From contig NZ_CP042906.1 of the NCBI RefSeq assembly GCF_008728855.1, forward strand, positions 682,001 through 746,000: a stretch of DNA of 64,000 bases, written 5' to 3'. Made by a program: the position numbers and the translations under genes. Positions within the stretch are counted from its first letter, which is position 1, and the number at the start of each line of letters is the position of its first letter. The notes under the pieces were generated by a model that was not told the origin of the DNA, made no database searches, and saw only the letters and a list, made by a program, of their open reading frames with translations. Shown piece by piece: positions 10,389 through 17,365 of the stretch. The stretch is from Hypericibacter terrae (GTDB taxonomy: Bacteria > Pseudomonadota > Alphaproteobacteria > Dongiales > Dongiaceae).

Positions 10389-11600
10389 ATGCGACTCATG
10401 ACCCAGACCCGGCTGATGCAAGCCCTCCCGTCCGACGCCGACCATCAGGTGACGCTGGCCAACTGGCGGCTGCCGCCCTTCAGCCGCTGGGCCTTCCACC
10501 ATGTGCGCGAGGTGCTGCCCACGGCCAATATCGCGGGCGGCGGGGCCGGCGCCGCGTTCCGACGCTCCGAGCGCAAGATCGCGCAGGTGGCGTTCCAGGG
10601 AGCGGACGGCAAGGAATGGAACATCGGCCGGCTGCTGTCCGAGACCTTCACCGACGGTTTCATCCTGCTGCAGCGCGGCCGGGTGCTGAGCGAGTGGTAC
10701 GACGCCGGCCAGACGCCGGAATCGCCGCATATCGTCTTCTCCGTCAGCAAATCGATCTCCGGCACGCTGGCCGGCATCCTCGTGGACCGCGGCCAGCTCG
10801 ATCCCGACGCCCCGGTGACGCGCTATATCCCGGAGGCGGCCGGATCGGCTTATGGCGATTGCACGGTGCGCCATGTGCTCGACATGACGGTCTCGATCGA
10901 TTTCGAGGAGAACTATCTCGATCCGCATGGCGTGTTCGGACGCTATCGGCTCGCGACCGGCTGGAACCCGCTGCCCGAGGGCACCAGGCCGACCGACCTG
11001 CGCGGCTTCCTGGTCACGTTGAAGCGCGCGCAGCGTGCCCATGGAAGTCTCTTCCACTATGTGTCACCCAACTCCGATCTGCTCGGCTGGATCCTCGAGC
11101 GCGCCTCGGGCGTGAATTACGCGCAGCTCCTGAGCGACGCGATCTGGAAGCCGATGGGCGCCGAGCAGGACGCCTATGTCACGGTCGATCGCTTGGGGGC
11201 ACCACGCTCGGCCGGCGGCATCTGCGTGACCTTGCGCGACCTGGCGCGCTTCGGCGAGATGATGCGGCTGCGCGGGCTCGTCGACGGCAGGCAGGTCGTG
11301 CCCGGCGGCTGGGTCGACGACATCACGCAGAACGGCGATCCCAAGCCCTGGCAGATTTCGGAGGCCGGCAAGCTGTTCGCGCCCAAGGGCCGCTATCGCA
11401 GCAAATGGTACATCATGGGCTATCCCTCCGGCGCCTATTGCGCGGTCGGCATCCATGGCCAGTGGATCTATGTCGATCCCGCGGCCGACATGGTGATCGC
11501 GAAGCAGTCCTCGCAGCCGCTGCCGGTCGACGTGCCGATGGACACGCTGCTGCTGGCGGGCTTCGACGCCCTCGGCCGCTGGCTCGAGAAGACCGCATGA
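10389..11600 (+). CDS. serine hydrolase of the beta-lactamase/esterase family
   Basis: The 403-residue protein has the class C beta-lactamase-like fold. Ser118-x-x-Lys121 (FSVSKSISG) is the nucleophile motif, HYVSPNSDLLGW near 223-234 supplies the Tyr, and GIHGQWIYVDP near the C-terminus is the third motif. The sequence is closer to 6-aminohexanoate-dimer hydrolase and esterase-type members than to true beta-lactamases. There is no clear signal peptide, so it is probably cytosolic. Its stop overlaps the start of the first nucleotidyltransferase gene (ATGA), so the two are co-translated. Confidence 0.85.
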   Translation: MRLMTQTRLMQALPSDADHQVTLANWRLPPFSRWAFHHVREVLPTANIAGGGAGAAFRRSERKIAQVAFQGADGKEWNIGRLLSETFTDGFILLQRGRVLSEWYDAGQTPESPHIVFSVSKSISGTLAGILVDRGQLDPDAPVTRYIPEAAGSAYGDCTVRHVLDMTVSIDFEENYLDPHGVFGRYRLATGWNPLPEGTRPTDLRGFLVTLKRAQRAHGSLFHYVSPNSDLLGWILERASGVNYAQLLSDAIWKPMGAEQDAYVTVDRLGAPRSAGGICVTLRDLARFGEMMRLRGLVDGRQVVPGGWVDDITQNGDPKPWQISEAGKLFAPKGRYRSKWYIMGYPSGAYCAVGIHGQWIYVDPAADMVIAKQSSQPLPVDVPMDTLLLAGFDALGRWLEKTA

Positions 11601-12631
11601 GCGAAGGCCGACGATCCGGTCTTCCCGATGAAGACCCGTCGGCCGCTTCGCCCGAATTGATCGTCGAGATGCGGGTCGGTTCGCATCTCTATGGCACCGA
11701 CACGCCGCGCTCCGATCTCGACATCAAGGGCGTCTATCTGCCGGCGGCGCGCGATATCTTGCTGCAGCGGGTGGCGCCTTCGCTGCTGCAGGCAGCAGCG
11801 AAGGCTCCGGGCCAGCGAAATCAGGCCGGCGACCAGGATTGCGAATATTACAGCCTGCAGCGCTATCTCGAGTTTCTGGCCGAGGGCCAGACCGGGGCCC
11901 TCGACATGCTGTTCGCGCCCGAGGGCGCGATGCTGCGGCCACCGGCGCCGCTTTGGTACGAGATCCAGGCCGCGAGCGGCCGCCTGGTGACGCGGCAGGC
12001 CGCCTCCTTCCTGCGCTATTCCCGCCAGCAGGCGGCCAAGTTCGGGATCAAGGGATCGCGCGTCGCGGCGGGACGACGGGCGCTGGCGGTCCTGTCGGCG
12101 GCCGAAGCCCGCCTCGGGACCACGGCGAGGCTCGAGGAGATCGCCGACGAGCTCGCGATCCTGGTGCAGGGCGCCGAGCATCTGGGCCTGGTCGATCTGC
12201 CGGCGCCGGGAGGCGAGGCCGTCCCGCATCTGGAGGTCTGCGGCCGCAAGATCTCCTACCGCGTGTCGATCAAGACGGCGCGCGAGATCGTGCAGAAGTT
12301 GGTCGAGGAATATGGCGCCCGGGCCCTTCAGGCCGAGCGCAACGAGGGCGTCGACTGGAAGGCGCTCTCTCATGCGGTCCGCGTCGGACGCGAAGCGGTC
12401 GAGCTGCTGCAGACCGGGCGGATCGCCTTTCCGCTGCGCGAGGCCGGCCATCTGAAGCGGATCAAGGCCGGCGAGATACCCTATCAGCTCGTGGCGGAGG
12501 AGATCGAATCCCTGCTGGTCGAGGTCGAGACCGCCGCCGCGGGTTCCCGACTGTCGCCGACGCCGGACCGCGGACTCATCGAGGAGCTGGTGAGCCGCGC
12601 CTATCGGCAGCAGATCGAGCGGGGGCCCTGA
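11597..12631 (+). CDS. nucleotidyltransferase (COG3541/YcgL-like), copy 1
   Basis: The 344-residue protein has an N-terminal DNA polymerase beta-type nucleotidyltransferase core: VGSHLYGTDTPRSDLDIKGVY, with Gly28-Ser29 and Asp40/Asp42 as the catalytic pair. Around it lie long helical segments containing QDCEYYSLQRYLEFLAEG and KFGIKGSR. The family is described as predicted nucleotidyltransferases and is placed with RNA-repair genes in comparative work. It starts inside the stop of the serine hydrolase gene, and a second family member begins 3 bp after it. The nearby Y-RNA array and TROVE gene suggest an RNA substrate (inference). Confidence 0.78.
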   Translation: MSEGRRSGLPDEDPSAASPELIVEMRVGSHLYGTDTPRSDLDIKGVYLPAARDILLQRVAPSLLQAAAKAPGQRNQAGDQDCEYYSLQRYLEFLAEGQTGALDMLFAPEGAMLRPPAPLWYEIQAASGRLVTRQAASFLRYSRQQAAKFGIKGSRVAAGRRALAVLSAAEARLGTTARLEEIADELAILVQGAEHLGLVDLPAPGGEAVPHLEVCGRKISYRVSIKTAREIVQKLVEEYGARALQAERNEGVDWKALSHAVRVGREAVELLQTGRIAFPLREAGHLKRIKAGEIPYQLVAEEIESLLVEVETAAAGSRLSPTPDRGLIEELVSRAYRQQIERGP

Positions 12632-12634
12632 CTC

Positions 12635-13432
12635 ATGGCCGGCGATCGGTATATCGACGGCGCGATGGAGCAGCGGATCCAGGCCGAGCTCGCCGGCATC
12701 GAAGCCCGCGAGCGGGTCCGGATTCTCCTGGCGGTCGAATCGGGAAGCCGTGCCTGGCGCTTTCCGTCGACCGACAGCGACTATGACGTGCGCTTTCTCT
12801 ATGTCCGCAGCCTCGAGCAATATCTCTCGATCGAGGCCGTTCGCGATGTGATCGAATGTCCGCTCGAGGGCGATCTCGATATCGGCGGCTGGGACCTGCG
12901 CAAGGCCCTGCAGCTCATGATCAAGTCGAACGCGGTCCTGATCGAGTGGCTGACCTCGCCGGTGCGCTATCGCGCGCAGACCCGGTTCGCGGAGCGGTTG
13001 CTCGAGCTGGCGCTCTCGCATTGCGATCCGGCGGCGCTGGCGCATCACTATGACCGGCTCGCGCGGTCGAGCTTCGCCGAGATCCAGTCGGCTGAGGGGC
13101 CGGCGCGGTTCAAGACCTATTGCTATGCGCTGCGGGCGGCGCTCGCCCTGGTCTGGATCCGGCAGCTCCGGCAGCCGGCGCCGATGGGCCTGCCGCGACT
13201 CCTGGCGGTCCTGCCGGCGGGATCTTCGCTGCGGCGCGCCATCGACGAGCTGGTCGCGCGCAAGGCCCAGGCGACCGAAGGCGACCTCTCTCCGCGCGTC
13301 GCCGCGATCGACGACTTCCTGGCCGAATGCCTGGAGACGGCGGCGGAGCGCCCGGCATCGATCGGCTCGCCCGCGGCGCTGGCCGACGCCAATGCTTTCT
13401 TCGCGGCCGTGTTGCTGGCCGAAGGCGCTTGA
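12635..13432 (+). CDS. nucleotidyltransferase (COG3541/YcgL-like), copy 2
   Basis: The 265-residue protein has the same core in a shorter form: LLAVESGSRAWRFPSTDSDYDVRFLYV, with the Gly-Ser motif at 37-38 and Asp49/Asp51 as catalytic acids. Then come the family blocks GWDLRKALQLMIKSNAVLIEWLTSP and FKTYCYALRAALA. It diverges strongly from copy 1, so the two are not a recent duplication and probably have different jobs or form a heteromer. The intergenic distance of 3 bp indicates one operon with the serine hydrolase and copy 1. Confidence 0.8.
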   Translation: MAGDRYIDGAMEQRIQAELAGIEARERVRILLAVESGSRAWRFPSTDSDYDVRFLYVRSLEQYLSIEAVRDVIECPLEGDLDIGGWDLRKALQLMIKSNAVLIEWLTSPVRYRAQTRFAERLLELALSHCDPAALAHHYDRLARSSFAEIQSAEGPARFKTYCYALRAALALVWIRQLRQPAPMGLPRLLAVLPAGSSLRRAIDELVARKAQATEGDLSPRVAAIDDFLAECLETAAERPASIGSPAALADANAFFAAVLLAEGA

Positions 13433-13514
13433 CGCCCGCCGCGTCTTCCCTTAGAAACCCGCTCCCGCACAGGTTGTGCGATCCATTCTTTCAGACCAGG
13501 AACCGAGACCGATC

Positions 13515-13694
13515 ATGTTCGCGACAGGGATATCGATGCTGAGGACGGCGGCGGTGAAAACCGCGATCGCCGGCGGCATGGGTCTGTTCGCGGCCAGGAT
13601 CGCGAACGGGCTGATGCCGGCCGTGGCGCATGGGAATGGCCGGATTCATGGCCATTTCAGGGCCTGGGCTTCGGATGGCGTGACGGCGATGTAG
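13515..13694 (+). CDS. hypothetical small membrane-like protein
   Basis: This is a 59-residue frame (MFATGISMLRTAAVKTAIAGGMGLFAARIANG...) with one possible hydrophobic segment and no recognised family. No strong ribosome-binding site is seen. Its only support is its position between the nucleotidyltransferase operon and a good terminator. It may be non-coding. Confidence 0.25.
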   Translation: MFATGISMLRTAAVKTAIAGGMGLFAARIANGLMPAVAHGNGRIHGHFRAWASDGVTAM

Positions 13695-13721
13695 CCCGTC
13701 ACGACAGGTCTTCGGATGAAG

Positions 13722-13770
13722 ACCCCACCCGAGCCCTCGCTTCCAGCGGGCCGCTCCGGTGGGGTTTTTT
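13722..13770 (+). terminator. rho-independent terminator
   Basis: CCCCACC (13723-13729) pairs with GGTGGGG (13758-13764), enclosing a GC-rich inner stem, and is followed directly by six T. It ends the transcription unit that starts with the serine hydrolase or the small frame after it. Confidence 0.8.
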
Positions 13771-13852
13771 ATTGCTTCGGGCGCAACCGCGGGATGCCGC
13801 GGTCGCGAAGGGGAGGGGCTGCGCGAAAGCAGGAATGAAGAGAGCAATTCTG

Positions 13853-13926
13853 GTGGTCGTAGCTCAGTGGCAGAGTGTTCCGTTGTGACCGGGAAGATAT
13901 CGGTTCGATTCCGTTCGACCACCCCA
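13853..13926 (+). tRNA. tRNA-His (GTG)
   Basis: A complete cloverleaf can be read. Acceptor GTGGTCG (13853-13859) pairs with CGACCAC (13916-13922), followed by C73 and an encoded CCA (13924-13926). The anticodon loop TTGTGAC carries GTG, and the T-loop is TTCGATT. G at 13852 supplies the G-1 that pairs with C73, the identity element of tRNA-His. It is a normal tRNA, unlike the tRNA-like elements downstream. Confidence 0.95.
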
Positions 13927-13940
13927 GACTGAGGCGATGC

Positions 13941-14180
13941 CTAGCGGCGGCGGGAAGGACGCAACCGCACGCCGAGGCCTTCGCGTTCGTTGCCGATGAA
14001 TTCGACGCCGGCCTTCTCGAGCACCGCTTCGATCGCTCTCAAGGTGCTGACGCGAGGATCGACATTGTCGCTCTCGATCATGTTGAGGGTGACGACGGAG
14101 ATCGCCGCCTTATGGGCCAGCAGGGCCTGCGTCCATTTCAGCAGGCCCCGCGCGGCCCGGATCTGCGCGCTGATGATCAT
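13941..14180 (-). CDS. small helix-turn-helix (XRE-type) regulator
   Basis: The protein is about 79 residues: IRAARGLLKWTQALLAHKAAISVVTLNMIESDNVDPRVSTLRAIEAVLEKAGVEFI. The Cro/cI-type HTH occupies most of it, and the tail (GLGVRLRPSRRR) is basic. The start at 14180 is chosen because the longer frame reads through the operator and the promoter of the Y-RNA array. Shine-Dalgarno pairing is poor. It lies divergent from the Y-RNA array, with the inverted repeat AAACTGTA/TACAGTTT in between. Autorepression and control of the array are likely but inferred. Confidence 0.75.
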   Translation of the reverse strand: MIISAQIRAARGLLKWTQALLAHKAAISVVTLNMIESDNVDPRVSTLRAIEAVLEKAGVEFIGNEREGLGVRLRPSRRR

Positions 14181-14191
14181 GAGAGAAATAT

Positions 14192-14219
14192 AAACTGTAC
14201 TGAAAGAAAAATACAGTTT
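14192..14219. promoter_or_regulatory. candidate operator between the HTH gene and the Y-RNA array
   Basis: AAACTGTA (14192-14199) and TACAGTTT (14212-14219) form a perfect 8-bp inverted repeat with a 12-bp AT-rich spacer. It stands 12 bp before the HTH start codon and overlaps the TTGACT hexamer at 14219 that could be the -35 element of the Y-RNA array. Confidence 0.6.
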
Positions 14220-14252
14220 TGACTTGACGGGACGGCAAGGAAATGACATTTT
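14219..14252 (+). promoter_or_regulatory. possible promoter of the Y-RNA array
   Basis: Two overlapping -35-like hexamers, TTGACT (14219-14224) and TTGACG (14224-14229), precede an AT-rich stretch around 14241-14252 (AAATGACATTTT) that could supply a weak -10. The -10 match is poor. Downstream, 14252-14260 can pair with the first stem strand of Y-like RNA 1. Confidence 0.3.
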
Positions 14253-14277
14253 CCGCGCCGCTTCGATGGAGGGCCTA

Positions 14278-14412
14278 CCGGCGCGGGCCGGCGTTCGAAG
14301 GGTTATCGCTTGAACTGCGGGAGTTGGGGGTTCGAGTCCCTCCGGCGGCGAGAGTTGCCGTAGCTCAATTGGTAGAGCACCGCCCTTTGACAGAAACATG
14401 CCCGCGTCGCCG
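14278..14412 (+). ncRNA. Y-RNA-like (YrlA-type) RNA 1
   Basis: The terminal stem CGGCGCGGGC (14279-14288) pairs over 10 bp with GCCCGCGTCG (14400-14409). Inside it are the shared motif CGAAGGGTTATC, a T-arm (GGGGG-TTCGAGT-CCCTC) and a 7-bp acceptor-like stem (14343-14349 with 14354-14360) closed by a GAGA tetraloop. U-A and a D-arm (GCTCAATTGGTAGAGC) follow, then ACATG at the stem. The order T-arm, closed acceptor, D-arm is a circularly permuted tRNA module, as in bacterial YrlA tRNA mimics. The Rsr/TROVE gene lies downstream. Confidence 0.8.
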
Positions 14413-14448
14413 TGAGACGACGATTGGGTAGGATGTGATTGATGGATA

Positions 14449-14586
14449 CCGGCACGGGCCGGAGCTCGAGGGTTACCTCAGGACGTGAAGGACGCGGGTT
14501 CGAATCCCGCCGCGTGCCGCAAGGCGCCGTAGCTCAGCGGTAGAGCGTCGCGCATAGGCTTCGGGCACAACATGTCCGTGTCGCCG
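14449..14586 (+). ncRNA. Y-RNA-like (YrlA-type) RNA 2
   Basis: The terminal stem CGGCACGGGC (14450-14459) pairs over 10 bp with GTCCGTGTCG (14574-14583), using two G-U pairs. The motif CGAGGGTTACC follows. The T-arm is GCGGG-TTCGAAT-CCCGC. The acceptor-like stem (14511-14518 with 14523-14529) has 7 bp with C14513 bulged and is closed by a GCAA (GNRA) tetraloop. The D-arm is GCTCAGCGGTAGAGC. An A-U pair replaces a G-C pair of RNA 1 in the terminal stem, a compensatory change that supports it. Confidence 0.8.
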
Positions 14587-14618
14587 AGGGACGACGCCTT
14601 GGAATTGAATGACGAGTG

Positions 14619-14760
14619 TCGGCACGGGCCGGTGTTCGAGGGTTATCTGCATGGTAAGCAGGTGGTCGGGGGTTCGACTCCCTCCGTTGCCGATCACGGT
14701 CGGCATCGTAGCTCAACGGTAGAGCTCCTTATCCTCGGCGAAAACATGTCCGTGTCGCCG
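14619..14760 (+). ncRNA. Y-RNA-like (YrlA-type) RNA 3
   Basis: The terminal stem CGGCACGGGC (14620-14629) pairs over 10 bp with GTCCGTGTCG (14748-14757). The motif CGAGGGTTATC follows, then T-arm GGGGG-TTCGACT-CCCTC. The acceptor-like stem (14685-14693 with 14700-14708) has 9 positions with one U-U mismatch and a six-base loop, TCACGG. The D-arm is GCTCAACGGTAGAGC. The acceptor is longer than in RNAs 1 and 2 and lacks the GNRA loop. Confidence 0.8.
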
Positions 14761-14788
14761 ATGACATGAGTTGGATTGAATGACGGAT

Positions 14789-14896
14789 ACGGCGCGGGCC
14801 GGCAATCGAGGGTTATCCCCTAACCCAGGCAGCGGGATCGGAGTCCCGCAGGCATCAAGGATGCTGCCGCCCTCGACAAAGCATGCCCGCGCCGGC
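14789..14896 (+). ncRNA. Y-RNA-like RNA 4, D-arm missing
   Basis: The terminal stem CGGCGCGGGC (14790-14799) pairs with GCCCGCGCCG (14885-14894), all ten pairs Watson-Crick. The motif CGAGGGTTATC follows. The T-like arm GCGGG/CCCGC encloses a degenerate loop, ATCGGAGT. A short hairpin GCATC-AAG-GATGC replaces the acceptor stem, and no D-arm follows. It is a reduced version of RNAs 1-3, either a shortened functional variant or a decaying copy. The intact terminal stem argues for retained protein binding. Confidence 0.65.
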
Positions 14897-14971
14897 AAGG
14901 CCTGAGAAAGCCGAGCGGCATCCTGCCGGCGCGGCAGAACGAGGACGCATTGATTTGGCACCGGAACAAAA

Positions 14972-15071
14972 CCGGCGGCGGGCCGAAGGACGAGGGTTAT
15001 CTGGTGGCGCGGGTTCGATCCCCGCACGGCATCTGATGCCGTAATCCCTCTCCATCCCATGCCCGCCGTCC
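14972..15071 (+). ncRNA. Y-RNA-like RNA 5, D-arm missing, adjacent to the TROVE gene
   Basis: The terminal stem GGCGGCGGGC (14974-14983) pairs with GCCCGCCGTC (15061-15070) with one G-U pair. The motif CGAGGGTTATC follows. The T-arm is GCGGG-TTCGATC-CCCGC, followed by a perfect 7-bp acceptor-like stem ACGGCAT/ATGCCGT with loop CTG. No D-arm follows. The 5' strand contains GGCCGAAGG, like the CGA-containing Ro-binding stem of Y RNAs. The element ends about 20 bp before the TROVE start codon, so it could also act as a 5' leader that lets the protein sense its RNA. Confidence 0.65.
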
Positions 15072-15092
15072 ATATTCTTGATGGAGGCGGGT

Positions 15093-16694
15093 ATGACCGA
15101 TTACGCACGGCTTTTCTCTTTTCGTCGGACCCCCCAGTCCGAGCCCATCCCCGGTACCGTGGCGAACACGGCCGGTGGCCATGCCTTTCCGGTCGATGAC
15201 TGGGTGCGGCTCGACCGCTTCCTGGTGCTGGGATCGGAGGGCGGCAGCTACTATGCCGGCGAGCGCCAGCTGACGCGCGAGAACGCGGAAGCCGCGATCC
15301 GCTGCATCCAGGCCGATGGCCCGCGCGCCGTTGCCCGCATCCTTGCGGTCAGCGAGAGCGGCCGCGCGCCCCGCAACGATTCGGCGATCTTCGCGCTGGC
15401 GCTGGTCATGGCGCTGGGCGACGAGGCGGCCAAGCGGGCGGCCTTCGCCGCTCTGCCCCGGGTCGCGCGGACGGGAACGCATCTGTTCCAGTTCGCCGAG
15501 ACGGTGCAGGGCCTGCGCGGCTGGGGCCGCGGCCTGCGCCGGGCGATCGCCGGCTGGTATCTGGCGCGTCCGGTGGAGGCGCTGGCCTATCAGCTGATCA
15601 AGTATCAGCAGCGCAACGGCTGGTCGCACCGCGATCTGCTGCGCCTCGCGCATCCCCTGACGGACGAGCTCGCGCGTCGCGATCTCTTCGACTGGGCCTG
15701 CCGGGGCACGGTGAGCGAGCGCCTGCCGGCGGTGATCGGGGCCGCGGCCGAGCTGGCCAAGGCACCGTCGCCGGCAGCGGCGGCGGCCCTCATCCGCGGG
15801 CATGACCTGCCCCGCGAGGCGGTGCCGACGTCGTTGCTGAACGAGCCTCTCGTCTGGCGGGCGCTCCTGGAGCGCATGCCGATGACGGCGCTGGTTCGCA
15901 ACCTGGCGAAGCTGACCACGGTCGGCCTGGTCAAGCCGTTCGGCGAGAGCCTGCCGCTGGTGTTGTCGGCGCTGGGCGATGCCGAGCGGATCCAGCGGGC
16001 ACGGCTGCATCCCTTGTCGCTGCTCCTGGCCTTGCGGACCTATTCGCAAGGCCGGGGCGATAAGGGGTCGCTGCACTGGGAGCCGGTGGGTCCGGTGATC
16101 GATGCGCTGAACGCCGCGTTCTATACGGCGTTCCGCGCCATCGAGCCGACCGGCAAGCGCGTGCTGCTGGCGCTCGACGTCTCGGGCTCGATGGGCTCGG
16201 GCCGGGTTGCCGGAAGCGCACTGACGCCGCGCGAGGCGTCGGCCGCGCTGGCGCTGGTGACGGCGGCGACCGAGGCGAACCATCACATCGTGGGGTTCGC
16301 CGCGGCCGACAAGCGCAGCTGGGAGAGCGGGACGGCGATGGCGCCGTTGTCGCTCTCTCCCTCGATGCGGCTGGACGATGCGGTCAAGGCCGTGTCGGGC
16401 CTGCCGTTCGGGCGGACCGACTGCGCGCTGCCGATGCTCTATGCGCTGGAGAAGCGGCTGGAGGTGGATGCGTTCGTCGTCTACACCGACAGCGAGACCT
16501 GGGCGGGGACCGTGCATCCCGTGCAGGCGCTTCGCCAGTACCGCGAGCAGTGCGGCATCGCCGCTAAGCTGGTGGTGGTCGGCATGGTGTCGAACGGGTT
16601 CAGCATCGCCGACCCGAACGATGCCGGCATGCTCGACGTGGTGGGTTTCGATACCGCCACGCCGGCCGTGATCGCCGACTTCATCCGGCAGTGA
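15093..16694 (+). CDS. rsr: Ro60-like TROVE/vWA RNA-binding protein (Rsr)
   Basis: The 533-residue protein is a bacterial Ro60 orthologue, a ring-shaped RNA chaperone that binds Y RNAs and works with exoribonucleases in RNA decay. The TROVE module is recognisable at the N-terminus (DDWVRLDRFLVLGSEGGSYY, ARTGTHLFQFAETVQGLRGWGRGLRRAIAGWY, HRDLLRLAHP). The C-terminal vWA domain has a complete MIDAS: DVSGS near 362, GRTD near 438 and TDSETW near 464. Length matches the Deinococcus protein (about 530). ATG 15093 is chosen because GGAGG lies 5 bp before it; 15078 and 15081 are alternatives. The five Y-like RNAs upstream are the obvious partners. Confidence 0.95.
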   Translation: MTDYARLFSFRRTPQSEPIPGTVANTAGGHAFPVDDWVRLDRFLVLGSEGGSYYAGERQLTRENAEAAIRCIQADGPRAVARILAVSESGRAPRNDSAIFALALVMALGDEAAKRAAFAALPRVARTGTHLFQFAETVQGLRGWGRGLRRAIAGWYLARPVEALAYQLIKYQQRNGWSHRDLLRLAHPLTDELARRDLFDWACRGTVSERLPAVIGAAAELAKAPSPAAAAALIRGHDLPREAVPTSLLNEPLVWRALLERMPMTALVRNLAKLTTVGLVKPFGESLPLVLSALGDAERIQRARLHPLSLLLALRTYSQGRGDKGSLHWEPVGPVIDALNAAFYTAFRAIEPTGKRVLLALDVSGSMGSGRVAGSALTPREASAALALVTAATEANHHIVGFAAADKRSWESGTAMAPLSLSPSMRLDDAVKAVSGLPFGRTDCALPMLYALEKRLEVDAFVVYTDSETWAGTVHPVQALRQYREQCGIAAKLVVVGMVSNGFSIADPNDAGMLDVVGFDTATPAVIADFIRQ

Positions 16695-16760: not shown

Positions 16761-17111
16761 ATGAATACAAATGAGACCGTGACGCTCTATAGACCCGTCG
16801 GCCCGAAGGAGCTGGAGCTGATTCCGCAAGGCGGATTTCGCGCCTTCCCGGCCCGCCTGCCGGAACAGCCAATCCTCTATCCAGTTCTCACCGAGGCCTA
16901 CGCGATCAAGATCGCCAGTGATTGGAACGTCAAGGCATCGGGCGCTGGTTACGTCACGCGCTTTCGGGTTCGCAAGCCGTTCCTTGATGGTTATGAGGTG
17001 CAGAACGCGGGTGGCTCGCAGTATCAGGAGTATTGGATACCTGCTGAGGACCTGACGGTGTTCAACGAAAACATCGTGGGACTGATCGAGGTCACGGCTT
17101 CGTTCCCTTAA
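16761..17111 (+). CDS. small conserved protein of unknown function (VTLYRPVGPKEL family)
   Basis: The 116-residue soluble protein begins TVTLYRPVGPKELELIPQGGFRAFPARLPEQPILYPV and ends in strands (EYWIPAEDLTVFNENIVGLIEVTASF). I have seen close relatives annotated as ADP-ribosylation/crystallin J1; that name is recollection and says little about function. No signal peptide or membrane segment is seen. The ribosome-binding site is weak. It stands alone between the TROVE gene and the Mn riboswitch. Confidence 0.7.
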   Translation: MNTNETVTLYRPVGPKELELIPQGGFRAFPARLPEQPILYPVLTEAYAIKIASDWNVKASGAGYVTRFRVRKPFLDGYEVQNAGGSQYQEYWIPAEDLTVFNENIVGLIEVTASFP

Positions 17112-17202: not shown

Positions 17203-17365
17203 TTCCCCCGCATCCATTGGGGAGTAGCCGTCTCCGGCCTTCATCGGAGAGTTCGCGTCAACACACTTGGTGGCTCGTTTCGGCGGGCCGCCATGGCGCG
17301 AATGGCGAAGCGGGGGATCGAGACCTCGTTGCGACTGGCGAGACCTTTGGCATCGATTCCTTTCA
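17203..17365 (+). ncRNA. yybP-ykoY manganese riboswitch
   Basis: The region before the GDT1-type gene contains the class signature: TTGGGGAGTAGCCG at 17217, an internal helix region with CAACACACTTGGTGG, and the 3' element TGGCGAGACCTTTGGCA near 17337-17353. The GGGGAGUAG and GAGACC elements form the Mn-binding internal loops of this class. About 70 bp remain before the ATG, room for an expression platform. The class commonly controls Mn exporters, consistent with the gene downstream. Boundaries are approximate. Confidence 0.85.

Follow-up and report, generated by a model that had tools for sequence, protein, structure and literature searches.

The window, a stretch of 64,000 nucleotides (682001-746000) from the one-contig 5.89 Mb genome of an alphaproteobacterium whose family also includes Rhodospirillaceae bacterium R-7, contains five elements (E1-E5) that lie in series on the same strand as rsr, which encodes a Ro60 ortholog, and end 25-690 bp upstream of the rsr start. 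Several lines of sequence evidence support the identification of E1-E5 as Y RNA genes: linkage to rsr, recovery by a covariance model, covariation of the stems, sub-threshold matches to the YrlA family, orthologous arrays in other genera and loss of the module from a genome of the same genus. Taken as a whole, our explanation is that the array specifies a set of Y RNAs that is switched by an HTH regulator, that the RNAs form alternative Rsr particles acting in RNA quality control and repair, and that their core is shared by common descent; judged from sequence comparison, we regard this account as very probable. The features of the module are listed in Table 1.

Table 1. Features of the rsr module, in window coordinates.
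Feature	Position	Strand	Evidence
RlaP-like nucleotidyltransferase 1 (RNA repair Pol-beta family)	11597..12631	+	PF10127 E=1.9e-9
RlaP nucleotidyltransferase 2	12635..13432	+	PF10127 E=1.8e-74
Extra tRNA-His (GTG), CCA encoded	13853..13926	+	
HTH_3 (XRE-type) regulator gene, divergent from array	13941..14180	-	PF01381 E=7.7e-9
Inverted repeat AAACTGTA-N12-TACAGTTT, putative HTH operator	14192..14219	.	-35-like TTGAC at 14224-14228
Y RNA E1	14279-14409	+	R1 101.3 bits (E=4.0e-16); YrlA 46.1 bits; fold
Y RNA E2	14450-14583	+	R1 102.9 bits (E=1.9e-16); YrlA 29.7 bits
Y RNA E3	14620-14757	+	R1 95.7 bits (E=5.1e-15); YrlA 37.1 bits
Y RNA E4	14790-14894	+	R1 52.8 bits (E=1.3e-6); folds
Y RNA E5	14974-15070	+	R1 64.0 bits (E=8.1e-9); folds
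rsr, Ro60 ortholog, intact, TROVE + vWA	15096..16694	+	PF25045 E=1.8e-65, PF05731 E=7e-45

Each element opens with a stem whose lower part carries a GGNC-CG/CAUG site, which by its sequence corresponds to the site where Ro60 binds other Y RNAs, and an upper stem follows above it. The distance from GGGC to GUUAUC is 12 nt in E2-E5 and 13 nt in E1. The first-pass annotation had described a shared 10-bp terminal stem, the motif CGA(A/G)GGGTTA(T/C)C and a 3' CATG, and direct reading located all three in every element. In E1 the Ro60-binding-type stem and GUUAUC are followed by a T arm, a 7-bp acceptor-like hairpin with a GAGA loop, the nucleotides UA and a D arm, the UA and the 4-bp D stem standing in the same register to the acceptor-like stem as in tRNA. 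The plan is repeated in E2, with a slightly irregular acceptor-like stem, and in E3, with a longer acceptor-like loop, in agreement with the initial description of a full tRNA-like module in the first three elements. E4 and E5 have the stem, GUUAUC and two hairpins, one T-arm-like (with a TTCGATC loop in E5) and one acceptor-like, and the D arm is absent from both. The order of parts in E1-E3, T arm (GGTTCGA loop), acceptor-like hairpin and D arm (GTAGCTCA...GGTAGAGC), reads as that of a circularly permuted tRNA in which a loop closes the acceptor end and the anticodon side leads into the stem of the Y RNA. With a loop sealing the acceptor end, E1-E3 could mimic a tRNA but could not be charged. 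ARAGORN calls a tRNA-Thr at 14617-14693 inside E3, a miscall of a kind also seen for Y RNAs of other genomes.

The downstream gene is an intact rsr, as expected from the proximity to an Rsr/TROVE gene noted initially. Its product aligns with human RO60 over residues 20-529 at 398 bits, with the Xenopus protein at 386 bits and with Deinococcus Rsr at 379 bits. The segment aligned to human residues 170-187 retains K170, R174 and H187, which are among the residues needed for Y RNA binding.

Twenty-two Y RNAs from other genomes, with the window sequences excluded, were used to build a covariance model (R1), which was run against the 5.9 Mb genome of the window. Five strong matches were returned, which were exactly E1-E5 (Table 1), and the next match had an E-value of 0.1. 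This recovery, together with the adjoining rsr and the orthologous arrays in related genera, upholds the Y RNA identity first assigned to the elements. The same search of the same-genus genome G014 gave no significant match. In an alignment of 22 full-length Y RNAs that included E1-E3, 94.4% of cells were paired and both sides had changed in 14 of the 22 pairs. The covariation score was 0.501, partly inflated in the lower helix because the 3' strand of that stem had been picked as the best partner, compared with 0.171 after shuffling and no more than 0.123 on sliding; in the T-arm and acceptor helices the elements had not been selected by pairing. Within the array, E1 and E4 have G-C at stem position 5 where E2 and E3 have A-U, and E4 has G-C at position 3 where E1-E3 have G-U, so that both stem substitutions reported in the first-pass annotation were correct. 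The terminal stem of E5 differs in sequence from the others with complementarity kept.

Stem and motif were also found to go together when only one of them was used for selection. Among elements picked by the sequence motif alone, 42% of stems had a partner scoring at least 8.5/10 within reach, against 8% with stems swapped between loci. Among those picked by the stem and Ro60 site alone, the motif was present in 52 of the 79 plus-strand elements and in none of the 11 minus-strand ones. Within 1.8 kb of rsr at 77 loci, the motif pair occurred 211 times on the rsr strand, 15 times on the opposite strand and 3 times inside rsr, a strand bias that excludes a chance origin. For the rsr-strand hits the GGNC-GUUAYC spacing was exactly 12 nt in 160 of 211 and 11-13 nt in 182 of 211. 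The Rfam bacterial Y RNA model named as a check in the first-pass annotation gave a divided answer: YrlA (RF02553) matched E1-E3, all below its 69-bit cut-off, and gave no match for E4 or E5.

Three other readings of the array were weighed against Y RNA genes. The T-arm and D-arm sequences are tRNA-like, and ARAGORN calls one stretch a tRNA-Thr, as would be seen if tRNA remnants without RNA function had been scattered by recombination beside rsr. The identical permuted order is nevertheless shared by every full element and recurs in other genera, and a model from other species recovers all five. Moreover, the tRNA halves score 22-23 at best against tRNAs of the same genome, and real tRNAs score 15-35 among themselves. 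Pseudogene debris lacking conserved stems, which the first-pass annotation had named as the outcome that would contradict it, can thus be ruled out and is given next to no probability, since the halves show no greater closeness to the tRNAs of the genome than those tRNAs show among themselves, and since covariation of the stems extends across genera. In some algae and archaea, tRNA genes with a circularly permuted order give rise to working tRNAs after processing. The elements would fit such genes in that the 3' half precedes the 5' half, E1 has a 7-bp acceptor-like stem, and UA and the D stem keep the tRNA register. The tRNA-like part has no anticodon stem-loop, however, and at its outer ends passes into the upper stem of the Y RNA; a loop of 4 nt in E1 and of greater length in E3 closes the acceptor end, CCA is absent, and YrlA is already known to be permuted in this way (RF02553 alignment; PMC8394870), so that working tRNAs are a scarcely credible product of the array.

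The array could instead be a structured 5' leader or attenuator of rsr, given its position immediately 5' of the gene, on the gene's strand and probably within one transcript. Against this, one complete RNA is repeated five times, the equivalent array of Chloroflexi lies mostly downstream of rsr, and an orphan copy occurs away from any rsr. We consider a leader in place of separate RNAs quite unlikely; a secondary cis role of the Y RNA array on rsr is possible.

Y RNA genes in a row beside a Ro60 gene are a known bacterial arrangement, and the array extends the known class of Rsr-linked bacterial Y RNAs and as a locus is not new in kind. In a census of 79 rsr loci of the genome collection, clear elements of the window's class were found at 57 loci with 1-8 copies each, the largest arrays being in Anaerolineae. 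Ten of these other loci have at least five, and full and short RNAs are commonly mixed, so a run of five is not unusual, and the earlier view that one with graded loss of parts is unusual is not supported. The order of full and short RNAs varies by genus; full RNAs first with short ones near rsr was rejected as a general order since Methylobacterium has the short ones first. Most RNAs of this class are missed by genome annotation, and a search at the Rfam YrlA cut-off gave no match at nine loci with some 40 elements, one of which is labelled as a nematode RNA. An orphan Y RNA on contig 28 of genome G017 (L121:4509-4580, minus strand), with no TROVE gene among the nearby ORFs seen, scores 36.3 bits with RF01656 and 28.6 bits with RF00019.

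Arrays accompanied by the same HTH gene and operator are present in Acetobacteraceae, Roseomonas, Methylobacterium and L114, a locus from a close relative of the window. In G014 (locus L039), a 5.0-kb block corresponding to 11609-16620 and comprising RlaP1, RlaP2, tRNA-His, the HTH gene, the Y RNAs and rsr is absent as one piece. Only the last 75 bases of rsr are left, indicating that the module was lost there as a unit. A second genome of the same family, G009, has the classical operon, rtcR-rsr-Y RNAs-rtcB-rtcA (the rtc genes were named by reading translations) with YrlA-type RNAs at 73.5 bits, over the cut-off. The G009 Rsr scores 44 bits against human RO60, versus 398 for that of the window. 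One family thus contains two kinds of Rsr-Y RNA system.

The window's RNAs share with YrlA a place beside rsr, a basal stem of the Rsr-binding type, more than one RNA per locus and, in E1-E3, the permuted tRNA-like module of T arm, acceptor-like hairpin and D arm. They differ in the core, which is GGGCCG-N10-GUUAUC in the window and GGCGAAUGC-N6-GGAACUAC or similar in YrlA-type RNAs such as those of G009, and in scoring below the YrlA cut-off (best 46.1 versus 69 bits). The YrlA type is exemplified by Salmonella rsr-yrlBA-rtcBA, whereas the window array has no adjoining rtcR or rtcBA and is accompanied instead by an HTH regulator and RlaP. Closer counterparts are the Y RNAs of actinophages such as Gordonia phage Cashline and Mycobacterium phage Sparky, which belong to the window's class: they contain GGGCCGGAG...GGUUACC and a permuted tRNA-like module and lie directly upstream of a Ro-like gene whose product is 50-52% identical to the window's Rsr. 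Unlike the window, the phage loci have two or three RNAs and no HTH/RlaP module. An Rsr of the window's type is encoded in 340 phage records, mostly of actinophages, and wherever such a record was read, Y RNAs of the window's class preceded the gene.

The class core, GGGC-CG-N10-GUUAUC with a 12-nt spacing, extends across about ten bacterial phyla and actinophages. Loci were found in Alphaproteobacteria, Myxococcota, Chloroflexota, Dormibacterota, Armatimonadota, Actinomycetota, Acidobacteriota, Verrucomicrobiota/Opitutae, Poribacteria and Eremiobacterota (taxa as in the sequence records), and the core is present also on a cyanobacterial plasmid and in actinophages. The Rfam consensus sequences of two animal families hold the same elements at the same 12-nt distance: GGUC-CGGaGucgaUGG-GUUAUC in nematode sbRNA (RF01656) and GGUC-CgAagguaGUGG-GUUAu in vertebrate Y RNA (RF00019). 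Both animal families resemble the window RNAs in the GGNC-CG site, the upper stem, the GUUAUC at the loop and the 3'-strand ACUUG/ACAUG, and differ from E1-E3 in having no tRNA-like module. Ro60 is the partner of vertebrate Y RNAs, and binding of Ro60 by nematode sbRNAs is disputed (PMC4726728).

When RF01656 was searched against 44 rsr-bearing genomes, 43 matches at E ≤1 were obtained, and coordinate mapping placed 39 of the 43 at the rsr locus. Three matches exceeded the curated cut-off of 38 bits, with scores of 42.9, 43.5 and 38.2. The loci concerned are L062, L066 and L114, and the score of 38.2 belongs to L114, from the close relative of the window; two elements of the window itself scored 20.9 and 19.4 bits, under the cut-off. 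RF00019 found no match in the window's genome (G000), and across 12 genomes it gave weak matches in one genome only, the best being the orphan copy at 28.6 bits. With RF00019 this weak, the link to animals rests mainly on RF01656.

The UUAUC motif is reported to be present in vertebrate Y RNAs and to be required for sbRNAs to act in DNA-replication assays, and the described Ro60 site is a seven-base-pair helix with a bulged C and a three-nucleotide bulge (PMC4726728). GUUAUC and the 12-nt spacing fall outside that site. On these comparisons we lean toward the view that a single ancestral RNA, passed on together with Ro60, gave rise to the bacterial Y RNAs of this class and to the Y RNAs and sbRNAs of animals, GUUAUC being an old inheritance. 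The likeness could have arisen by convergence if Ro60, perhaps with another conserved protein, selects the same bases. Ro60 is homologous in bacteria and animals, and convergence is conceivable because the protein reads the lower stem on both sides; only short motifs are common to the two sets of RNAs, and their loops are entirely different. However, GUUAUC and the exact 12-nt distance coincide even though they lie outside the described Ro60 site (PMC4726728), and RF01656 scores reach 43.5 bits, over the curated cut-off. We therefore hold convergence to be a doubtful explanation, albeit one with some weight. The shared core is the part of this analysis that may surprise specialists, and it contrasts with a 2015 review in which bacterial Y RNAs were considered not homologous to vertebrate ones (PMC4726728). 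If the common core holds, the puzzling UUAUC motif of animals can be studied in bacteria and phages.

Seven related loci have a counterpart of the divergent HTH gene, 61-69% identical, in the corresponding position. The sequence AAACT..AAGTTT followed by TTGAC is also kept in position at L043/L098, L045-L047 and L114, with a weaker form at L044. This conservation points to the inverted repeat as the likely operator of the HTH protein and to a single HTH-controlled promoter, likely at about 14190-14230, ahead of all five RNAs. A promoter scan of the region scored no sigma-70 consensus promoter and nothing above chance, so that the promoter assignment rests on the conserved operator. Homologs of both RlaP genes lie near rsr in L114; RlaP genes were seen next to rsr only there and in the window, and may be a local addition. 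RtcB was not found beside the array and is present as a single copy 0.9 Mb away in the window's genome. A terminator, GACCCCACC...GGTGGGGTTTTTT, lies between RlaP2 and tRNA-His (13510-13775), and a near-copy precedes a tRNA-Arg in R-7 (L042:6220-6268).

In bacteria, Y RNAs are bound by Rsr through their stem and can tether the protein to PNPase, and the tRNA-like domain of YrlA is modified by tRNA enzymes (PMC8394870). RlaP is reported to be an RNA-repair nucleotidyltransferase that acts with RNA ligases (PMC7824862). By extension, each window RNA would be held on the Rsr ring by its lower stem, and a set of alternative Rsr particles would result from the five different, interchangeable heads. 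The full tRNA mimics E1-E3 would recruit tRNA-binding partners or the exonuclease PNPase, and the short E4 and E5 may gate the Rsr ring or bind other partners. With two RlaP proteins and a spare tRNA-His, the module would most likely act under stress, in the quality control and repair of damaged RNA including tRNA, with the divergent HTH regulator as its switch. With five naturally occurring versions of one Y RNA, the operon should be useful for asking what a tRNA mimic and a short head each do on the same Rsr.

The tRNA-His of the module is a second copy, the canonical gene being located at 2.6 Mb of the window's genome. About a fifth of rsr loci (17 of 76) have five or more tRNAs, with Y RNAs beside tRNA arrays. 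These tRNA genes lie almost always on the rsr strand (315 of 317), and an array may have up to 27 genes and cover up to 19 amino acids. The lone tRNA-His of the window may be a minimal form of such an array. In Anabaena, translation stress induces an otherwise silent tRNA array that is co-regulated with rtcB (PMC10272220), which by analogy offers a cue that the window module could be linked to stress. Large tRNA arrays within about 7 kb of rsr were seen at L048, L049, L050, L054, L055, L057, L058, L073, L094, L116, L120 and others, in hosts that include Myxococcales, Chloroflexi and Dormibacterota.

On the 3' side of rsr, a gene at 16761-17111 encodes a 116-aa protein that belongs to no Pfam family. 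A homolog (73% identity) likewise follows rsr in R-7, and the gene is retained in G014 though rsr has been lost. Farther downstream, an ordinary manganese riboswitch (17207-17358, 51.6 bits) precedes a GDT1-family transporter gene.
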